This document shows, one piece after another, positions 39,187 to 54,490 of a DNA stretch of 64,000 bases. The DNA comes from Maritalea myrionectae DSM 19524 (GTDB taxonomy: Bacteria > Pseudomonadota > Alphaproteobacteria > Rhizobiales > Devosiaceae), in NCBI RefSeq assembly GCF_000423365.1, contig NZ_AUHV01000002.1, forward strand, positions 310,001-374,000. The letters are read 5' to 3'. Position 1 is the first letter of the stretch, and every line of letters starts with the position of its first letter. Position numbers and translations under genes: made by a program. The notes beneath the pieces are model-generated. The model did no database searches. It was not told where the DNA came from and saw nothing but the letters and a program-made list of their open reading frames with translations.

Positions 39187-39200
<14 letters not shown>

Positions 39201-39747
39201 TCGGGACAGCGCGATCCAATTCATTTTCAAGCTCAAAATACTCTTCTTGGCTGAAGCTGAACATGTTAGCAACGATGTTAGAGGGGAAGCTTTCCACGCT
39301 CACATTCAAATTGCGCACGGTGCCGTTATAATAACGGCGGGCCAGCTGAATTTCTTCTTCCACTTGCTGCAGCGCCTCTTGAAACTCAATAAAGGAACTG
39401 TCGGCTCTCAACTCTGGATAATCTTCCGCCACGGCAAATAGTCGGCCCAGTGCGCCAGACAAAATGCCTTCCAGCTTGCCGCGTTCCTGCGGCGAGGCAT
39501 CGCCAGCGTTTTGCACGGCGGCCCGTGCCTGGGTTACCGCTTCAAGCGTTTCACGCTCATGGGTCACATAGCCCTTTACGGTTTCCAGCAGGTTGGGAAT
39601 TAAATCAGCACGGCGCTTCAATTGCACATCAATGCCAGACCAGCCTTCGCGCACCAATTGGCGAAGTTTCACCAGCTTGTTGTACGTTATAATCCCGAAG
39701 AAAACGACGGCGCCACTCAGCGCCAAAATAATCTGCAAAAAGTCCAT
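39187..39747 (-). CDS. lemA: LemA family protein
   Basis: 186 residues: an N-terminal transmembrane helix (about 3-22) then a long helical bundle with the LemA pattern (YNKLVKLRQLVREGWSGIDV, LKRRADLIPNLLETVKGY, EFQEALQQVEEEIQLARRYYN, FPSNIVANMFSF). The N-terminus is outside and the bundle cytoplasmic in described members. GAGGG lies 5 nt before ATG 39747. It is translationally overlapped by the DUF2207 gene. Confidence 0.93.
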
Positions 39748-39802: not shown

Positions 39803-40015
39803 CTAAGCGCAAACATCGCAGAAAATAAAGGGGCCGTCCATATAGGCAAAACAAAAGGGCGACTGATCTGCATCATATCGCCCTTTTCTAAATTTTACCT
39901 TGCGCGTGTAGCGCAGTTTTTTCTCGACTATTTTGGGACTGAACCGCTTATCCCCCAAGGCCTTTGCAGGAATATTTTGAGGTTTAATCAGCGCCCCTGC
40001 TTGCTTCTTGCGCAT
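39803..40015 (-). CDS. Small basic protein, candidate ArfA-type ribosome-rescue factor
   Basis: 70 codons. ATG 40015 is preceded by AAAGGAG with 8-nt spacing. The N-terminal 55 residues are strongly basic; N14, L20, D22, F25, K28 and a following K-rich stretch fall at the same positions as N14, L20, D22, F25, R28 and the basic segment of E. coli ArfA, whose full length is 72. The last 17 residues (FCFAYMDGP, FIFCDVCA) are hydrophobic with cysteines, like the unstable tail of full-length ArfA. An intrinsic terminator occupies codons 43-57. It lies between glyQ and lemA. The ArfA assignment is an inference; it could be an unrelated short ORF in front of the glyQ terminator. Confidence 0.6.
   Translation of the reverse strand: MRKKQAGALIKPQNIPAKALGDKRFSPKIVEKKLRYTRKVKFRKGRYDADQSPFCFAYMDGPFIFCDVCA
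39845..39887 (-). terminator. Intrinsic terminator inside the small basic ORF
   Basis: Minus strand: AAAAGGGCGA and TCGCCCTTTT (39887-39878 and 39862-39853) form a perfect 10-bp stem; the 15-nt loop contains a further TGAT/ATCA pair. TTTTGTTTTGCC provides the U-tract. It sits in codons 43-57 of the 39803-40015 ORF, before its stop. Confidence 0.85.
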
Positions 40016-40073
40016 TGTGAGGCTCCTTTGTTTGCCCGCCTGATATAGGCGCAACACCCCAAAGGTTCAAGAC

Positions 40074-41000
40074 TTAAGCGCCGCCGGCCTCCGTATTGAG
40101 CCATGCGCCACCGCAGGCCTTTGCCAGCTCACGCACCCGCAAAATATAGCTTTGACGTTCAGTTACAGAGATCACACCGCGTGCATCAAGCAAATTGAAA
40201 ATGTGTGAAGCCTTGATGCACTGCTCATAGGCGGGCATCGCCATTTTGTGCTGATTGCCTTGGTCGCCCGCCTCAAGAATGGCGCGGCATTCCGCTTCTG
40301 CATCCTTAAAGTGCTGGAACAACATGTCGGTGTTGGCCTGCTCGAAATTGTAGCGCGAGAATTCTTGCTCAGCTTGCAAAAACACATCAGCATAGGTGAC
40401 CTTCTCGTCGCCCTCGCGGCCATTGAAGTTCAATTCCATGATGCTGTCCACGTCCTGCAAATAACAGGCAATCCGCTCGAGCCCGTAGGTCAATTCGCCG
40501 GAAACAGGGGAACATTCAAAGCCAGCCACTTGTTGGAAATAGGTGAATTGGCTTACTTCCATGCCATCGCACCAGCATTCCCAGCCAAGGCCCCACGCGC
40601 CAAGGGTTGGGCTTTCCCAATCATCTTCCACGAAGCGCAAATCATGCAGTTTCGGATCGATGCCAATGGCGTAGAGCGATTGCAGATAAAGCTCTTGCAG
40701 GTTTTCCGGGCTTGGCTTCAGCAAAACTTGGAACTGGTAATAATGCTGCAAGCGGTTCGGGTTTTCACCATAGCGGCCATCGGTTGGGCGGCGGCAGGGC
40801 TGCACATAGGCAGCGCGCCACGGCTTTGGCCCCAAAGAGCGCAATGTTGTTGCCGGGTGGAACGTACCCGCACCCATTTCCATGTCATAAGGTTGTAAAA
40901 TCACACAGCCTTGGGCAGCCCAGAAATTTTGCAATGTCAAAATCAGCCCTTGGAAGGACTGTTTTGGGTCCAGATGGGCTGGCACTTTTTGTTCGCTCAT
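40074..41000 (-). CDS. glyQ: Glycine--tRNA ligase alpha subunit
   Basis: 308 residues, standard for the alpha chain holding the catalytic core. Marks: [71 protein letters not shown] and [17 protein letters not shown] 41000 has AAAGGTC upstream; an in-frame start at 41048 adds 16 unrelated residues. The partner glyS is 3 kb away on the same strand. Confidence 0.97.
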
Positions 41001-41129
41001 AAACTTGACCTTTGGCATCCGCTGATAAGTTTCAACTAACTTATCCAATCGCGCTGCAACCTAATTGCGCCGTGCCGAATTATCAAGCGGCAGGTGAACA
41101 TTGCGGCAAACTAATTTTCACGAAGGCGA

Positions 41130-54460: not shown

Positions 54461-54490
54461 AAAAGCCCGCCGGTTTTCCGGCGGGCTATT
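54461..54490. terminator. Bidirectional terminator between epoxide hydrolase and mscS
   Basis: AGCCCGCCGG/CCGGCGGGCT, a perfect 10-bp stem with TTTT loop, between convergent genes. On the minus strand it is followed by TTTTTG; the plus side has ATTGCTTT. Confidence 0.8.

Follow-up and report, generated by a model that had tools for sequence, protein, structure and literature searches.

Ribosomes stranded on mRNAs that lack a stop codon can be released by ArfA (YhdL, PF03889), a factor of gamma- and betaproteobacteria with a short basic functional part, whose gene carries an in-frame hairpin before the stop codon in genomes that also encode transfer-messenger RNA (tmRNA) and RF2. For Escherichia coli arfA, a review (PMC8012679) gives both a terminator and an RNase III route, and describes BrfA of Bacillus subtilis as having a rho-independent terminator before the stop, control by trans-translation and dependence on RF2. 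In published surveys ArfA is confined to gammaproteobacteria and part of the betaproteobacteria, with a Bacillus factor in addition; Table 1 of PMC11633108 lists arfA in 0 of 2376 alphaproteobacterial genomes, the class is described as lacking it (PMC11633108, PMC10070815), and arfA is argued to have arisen after the Proteobacteria divided (PMC10070815). Since these surveys restrict ArfA to other groups, alphaproteobacterial rescue has been attributed to tmRNA and ArfB. Here we describe a 70-codon open reading frame (ORF) in a 64-kb stretch of the alphaproteobacterium Maritalea myrionectae DSM 19524 (contig NZ_AUHV01000002.1, positions 310 001 to 374 000; all 64 000 nucleotides are called the window). 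The comparisons below make it highly probable that this gene encodes a divergent alphaproteobacterial ArfA whose message would lack a stop codon and whose level tmRNA would keep low. The features at the centre of the argument are as follows.

39803..40015, minus strand: ArfA-like ORF, 70 codons plus TAG, assigned from orthologues, codon substitution pattern and a family profile match to ArfA
39853..39887, minus strand: terminator-type hairpin inside the ORF, stem AAAAGGGCGA...TCGCCCTTTT, a perfect 10-bp stem with a loop of 15 and inner pairs added in the minimum free energy (MFE) fold
39848..39856, minus strand: U-tract TTTTGTTTT, read from the sequence
39851..40015, minus strand: section that ribosomes would probably read on the terminated mRNA (codons 1-55; the peptide has a net charge of +13), given a stem end in codon 55 and a predicted exact 3' end
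39806..39850, minus strand: read-through tail FAYMDGPFIFCDVCA from the translation, grand average of hydropathy (GRAVY) +1.15, similar only in loci L060 and L064 among 26 hairpin-bearing members of the family

The ORF runs from the ATG at 40015 to the TAG at 39805-39803 on the minus strand in the window sequence. A sequence-only reading of this DNA had proposed the ORF and, within its codons 43-57, a perfect 10-bp hairpin with a U-tract. Both were confirmed; the hairpin and T-rich tract lie there, upstream of the stop, with GTTTT after the stem. In this the gene agrees with ArfA, whose hairpin likewise sits in the coding region before the stop. The hairpin has an MFE of -20 kcal/mol (z = -5.1), and none of 200 dinucleotide shuffles was equally stable; 200 versions in which synonymous codons were substituted from Y36 onward were all less stable too (z = -4.3). 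A window scan for at least 10 Watson-Crick pairs, 5 G-C, a loop of at most 16 and a T-rich flank returned only two sites, the ORF hairpin and 54464-54487; a simple scan overlooked the former because its loop limit is 8. The site at 54464-54487 is a perfect 10-bp G+C-rich inverted repeat, T-rich in its flank on both strands, and is probably a bidirectional terminator. An Rfam scan of the window returned nothing except one tRNA.

All five other genomes shown of the genus carry homologues, as do several further genera of its taxonomic family (Devosiaceae; 101 genomes searched), after removal of chance-looking matches from the first search (L020, L022, L024, L026, L027, L029, L030 and rows without a locus). 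The protein-family set comprises 70 members, namely 68 places plus L146 and L147, excluding genomes without a locus (G503, G009, G008, G886 and G1114), G091 (contig end), L047 (seemingly spurious), L128 (identical to L127) and L142 (internal stop, contig edge). When a 15-sequence profile (A1) was compared with 177 635 distinct PDB sequences, six ArfA sequences came first at E = 1.1e-3, followed by a match at 0.066; a 22-sequence profile (A4) again put six ArfA sequences on top at E = 7.9e-6, with the next at 0.86. Only ArfA reached significance in the PDB, and no BrfA chain appeared at E <= 10 in that set, whose BrfA content was unchecked. An hhalign comparison of the hairpin-bearing members with 18 ArfA proteins, chosen by pattern from 33 loci in other classes of the phylum, gave E = 7.7e-11 and a score of 47.1. 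Column permutations of this comparison (n = 1500) scored at most 19.2 with a single exception at 133, and among 300 permutations of the hairpinless alignment one scored 132.8 over 10 columns, exceeding the real 44.1; the score of 133 is regarded, without proof, as an artefact. A hidden Markov model (HMM) built from the 18 ArfA sequences recovered 38 of the 70 members at E <= 1 among 8677 six-frame ORFs, together with one decoy (E 0.53). The PF03889 search suggested by the sequence-only reading succeeded for the family, since five of seven hand-picked members (L147, L146, L138, L136 and L118) exceed the cut-off, but not for the window protein itself. By these profile comparisons the protein family is homologous to ArfA at the family level, and the ArfA-type identity first proposed for the gene is supported. 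PF03889 run over 398 genomes of the phylum matched 50, two of them alphaproteobacterial (G800 and G830).

A second Pfam profile also recognises many members. DUF7230 (PF23876), whose annotation gives no known function, reaches E <= 0.05 in 17 of 22 members (best 2.5e-12), and its match overlaps that of ArfA in two proteins scanned, so that profile evidence makes it very likely that DUF7230 and the ArfA-like family belong to one superfamily. The window protein lies below the DUF7230 cut-off (14.3-15.3 of 27 bits). NCBIfam gave no match for it or for 22 family members, and PF03889 and PF23876 searched against its own genome gave no significant match at the locus.

At the level of residues, the structural accounts available for E. 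coli ArfA place helix 15-24 at the decoding centre, F25 and Q27-E30 against RF2, and residues 31-48 in the mRNA channel (PMC8012679, PMC5378476); the N-terminal minidomain includes Ala18, Leu19, Leu24 and Phe25 (PMC5378476), and the basic C-terminal segment destined for the channel includes a KH motif (PMC8012679). In our family the invariant columns are N14, A17, A19 and L20 in the helix and Y36, R38 and K39 in the basic segment, and F25 is nearly invariant. F25 is matched in both of our alignments to E. coli ArfA, V/I29 and Y-x-R-K-x-K are aligned too, and the basic segment YTRKVKFRKG falls on the ArfA channel segment. An ungapped alignment pairs N14 and L20, a gapped one pairs A19-L20 with A18-L19 of ArfA, and neither provides a counterpart of ArfA Leu24 in the window protein. 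N14, L20, D22 and F25, singled out earlier for their positions, do carry the same numbers in E. coli ArfA, whose sequence was confirmed, but D22 is not conserved and matching by position is a weak argument.

Whether the ORF is a gene at all was judged from its surroundings, its expression signals and its evolution. The names of the two neighbours, which we take to be glyQ and lemA, were recognised from the ORF list.

40074..41048, minus strand: upstream neighbour, presumably glyQ, from the ORF list, with synteny by tblastn
39187..39747, minus strand: downstream neighbour, presumably lemA, from the ORF list, with synteny by tblastn
40023..40029, minus strand: ribosome-binding site AAAGGAG, from the sequence, 7 nt ahead of the ATG
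40065..40070, minus strand: -35-like TTGAAC of a predicted promoter, spaced 17 nt from TATATC
40042..40047, minus strand: -10-like TATATC (CCTATATC) of the predicted promoter, with CCTATAT kept in relatives

The strong AAAGGAG site noted at the outset stands. The promoter-like TTGAAC-17-TATATC sits directly after glyQ and is conserved within the genus: TTGAAC is shared with L060 and L064, the three remaining members having TTTAAx, and CCTATAT is present in all six genus sequences as well as in L069, L034 and L066 (19 upstream stretches compared). Homologues with the ORF and hairpin were found, as anticipated, at the glyQ-lemA place. By tblastn, 27 of 30 loci of the taxonomic family have glyQ or lemA in their flanks of ~1.5 kb, and at 11 of the 30 the gene lies between both. 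Selection at the protein level, which the first reading had also called for, is seen before the hairpin, where pN/pS is 0.08-0.44 over codons 2-42 in ten pairs (dS being near saturation in several) and close relatives differ mostly at third positions of the first 42 codons (L031/L063: 4 at position 1, 3 at position 2 and 20 at position 3). Over seven pairs, nucleotide differences amount to 5-19% in codons 43-56 versus 22-39% in codons 2-42, as would be expected if the RNA stem were under selection. Stem changes on both sides that keep the pair were seen in L061/L062 (two), L067/L068 (one) and L124/L134 (two). Taken from synteny, the protein-like evolution of the pre-hairpin codons and the fewer nucleotide changes in the hairpin, the conclusion is that the window ORF is a real gene.

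These data bear on the simplest alternative, that the hairpin simply terminates glyQ or some short transcript and that the ORF is spurious or unimportant. The genes glyQ and lemA do flank the hairpin and share its strand, and for 23 of the 26 members with a hairpin the 150 nt after the stop yielded no second terminator-like one (the window gene does have a second one, of 7 pairs). The third-position bias and a pN/pS well below 1, the retention of orthologues as proteins beside lemA even where the hairpin is missing, and the ribosome-binding site and promoter-like elements that separate glyQ from the ORF all speak against it, and we rejected this explanation as very improbable.

Across the family, a strict terminator-like hairpin lying wholly before the stop occurs in 26 of 69 members, compared with 1.95 on average and never more than 7 in 300 synonymous recodings. 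This count takes members with a recognisable Y-x-R-K motif (L145 is without it). The sequence-only reading had asked whether the hairpin-in-ORF is conserved among homologues; in its strict form it is kept in these 26. Folding energies fall below those of recodings at z < -2 in 19 of the 26 strict-hairpin members and 9 of 39 others examined (n = 65), and imperfect hairpins overlooked by the strict rule are present in L138, L140 and L147. Stem sequence and position vary between lineages, so the element is retained while its letters change. The tail beyond the hairpin behaves differently: the hydrophobic, Cys-containing tail described earlier is encoded in the window ORF, but its like is confined to three genus members, and a conserved hydrophobic degron was ruled out by tail GRAVY values from -1.55 to +2.47 across members. 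Many hairpinless members stop normally soon after the motif, often with an acidic tail.

Such a form is found in genus g11 (L070-L074, L076-L082, L084 and L085), where hairpinless orthologues mostly have short acidic tails and normal stops; L075 of genus g8 resembles them. Eleven of the 14 g11 loci adjoin lemA, which implies that lineages inside the family have acquired or lost the hairpin. In 11 of the 14 no clear ribosome-binding site was seen, a count that is biased because starts were chosen partly by that site; the g11 form is perhaps a constitutive or coupled ArfA. Outside the class, an ArfA from elsewhere in the phylum (L107, G852) has a short hairpin immediately behind the channel segment, a layout close to the alphaproteobacterial one.

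The same hairpins could act as RNase III sites rather than terminators, with the protein unchanged. Some stems reach 14-17 bp, and L120 and L122 have just 4-5 T in 8; set against this, the 15 hairpins of the window's taxonomic family all have T at 5-7 of 8 positions where the stem ends. The arfA hairpin of Neisseria was reportedly shown by Schaub et al. in 2012 to be a terminator. We consider cleavage in place of termination rather unlikely here, and it is a variant of the preferred explanation, since either route yields non-stop mRNA.

The partners that a tmRNA-controlled ArfA would need are present. The genome encodes tmRNA (tag ANDNIAEARLAA), SmpB, RF1 and RF2, the last carrying SPF, GGQ and IGWG, whose W we take to be Trp319. 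ArfB (YaeJ), a separately encoded GGQ-domain enzyme unrelated in sequence to the window protein, rescues the same non-stop ribosomes as those on which the window protein is predicted to act. A rescue function for the protein would predict that carriers of the gene can do without ArfB. In the taxonomic family, ArfB is missing from 10 of 27 genomes with the gene in any form versus 1 of 23 without it (p = 0.006, uncorrected for kinship), and from 7 of 13 with the hairpin gene. The single ArfB-less non-carrier is a draft with only one RF-type match, while the ArfB-less hairpin-gene carriers G006, G010 and G021 are single-contig genomes. This count of 50 genomes leaves out G004, G008, G012, G039, G501 and G506, all with matches; it scores G009 and G503 as carriers by profile match, although a pattern check of their loci (L150 and L149) gave none, and G024 as ArfB-positive from one RF gene plus an ArfB-like match. 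For the class we used 80 genomes (36 carriers and 44 others), scored ArfB as putatively present from at least three PF00472 matches, and removed genomes <90% complete or with <2 such matches. Among genomes of at least 2 Mb, ArfB is present in 8 of 27 carriers versus 15 of 19 non-carriers (p = 0.002, with a post hoc size cut and no correction for kinship). These p-values are only indicative, because size cuts were picked after seeing the data and the genomes are related. Small genomes of the class are often without both the gene and ArfB. Two single-contig genomes of 1.2 Mb from one alphaproteobacterial family (L146 of G830 and L143 of G1046) have an ArfA-like ORF of 35-45 residues with a normal stop; each has just two RF-type genes and hence no ArfB.

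We propose that the gene would be transcribed from its own promoter into a short mRNA ending mostly at the hairpin, in codon 55-56, and thus lacking a stop codon. With tmRNA-SmpB working, the product of ~55 residues would receive the tag ANDNIAEARLAA and be degraded; with trans-translation overloaded or absent, untagged peptide would build up. On stalled ribosomes its basic Y-x-R-K segment would enter the vacant mRNA channel, and the F25 region would recruit RF2, releasing the nascent chain. The gene would then serve as a reserve for tmRNA and, in certain lineages, replace ArfB. Tagging, and accumulation when trans-translation fails, we infer from ArfA and BrfA, so that the likeness to BrfA in control and RF2 dependence is a predicted one.

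Several observations weigh against this proposal. The window protein alone gives no PF03889 match (own-genome search and hmmscan), the 18-sequence ArfA HMM misses its ORF even at E 100, and only 6 of the 22 A4 members match PF03889 at E <= 0.05 (best 0.004). Relative to ArfA, it is three residues short in the KGKGSY loop before the channel segment, has KF in place of KH, and has a helix register that is ambiguous by one residue. The promoter-like sequence is unlisted by a consensus scan of the window. When stems were compared pairwise (n = 15), one or two base pairs were disrupted in one partner of seven comparisons and the geometry differed in two, and the strict in-frame hairpin is absent from 43 of 69 members. 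The window genome retains ArfB, and without the size cut the class-wide difference in ArfB is not significant (8 of 30 carriers versus 15 of 33 non-carriers, p = 0.19).

Such divergence, together with the common hairpinless, often acid-tailed and normally stopped members, could mean that an ArfA homologue has taken a new job as a small basic ribosome- or RNA-binding protein no longer recruiting RF2. The invariant columns lie in the helix as well as in the basic segment, F25 is nearly invariant, the hairpin is kept, and within the taxonomic family of the window it is chiefly carriers of the gene that have no ArfB, all of which make this loss of function improbable. The change from H to F is shared with L060 and L064, and KH is found in 11 of the 12 other A1 sequences, the twelfth ending before the motif.

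For an ArfA under tmRNA control, the logic is already known; what appear new are the alphaproteobacterial branch, its host class and the link to DUF7230. The hairpin, terminator-like here, is a further difference from ArfA of gamma- and betaproteobacteria. The lack of a well-described arfA in the group, stated in the sequence-only reading, agrees with the surveys cited above, and the open-access literature searched, in the text available, holds no report of a chromosomal alphaproteobacterial ArfA. ArfT of Francisella is likewise a small RF-dependent rescue factor, a function only predicted for the window protein, and is described as having almost no homology to ArfA and no RNase III site (PMC8874680). 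Nearer in host is gp30 of pelagiphage HTVC027P, a phage of the alphaproteobacterium SAR11, which has a PF03889 domain and is reported to be highly expressed (PMC12753301). It is a phage gene named from its Pfam match and likened here by description only; phages could have carried ArfA between alphaproteobacteria. The evidence leaves it evenly balanced whether a hairpin-switched ArfA is common across the Alphaproteobacteria and probably of early origin there, concealed behind DUF7230 and ORFs that lack annotation, with ArfA and ArfB interchanging across the class and some lineages having lost the hairpin to leave an unregulated ArfA with a normal stop. If there is such a hidden branch, it would explain how ArfB-less alphaproteobacteria cope and would give DUF7230 a function, and orthologues near one locus, some having the non-stop switch and others lacking it, would offer material to ask why the switch exists.
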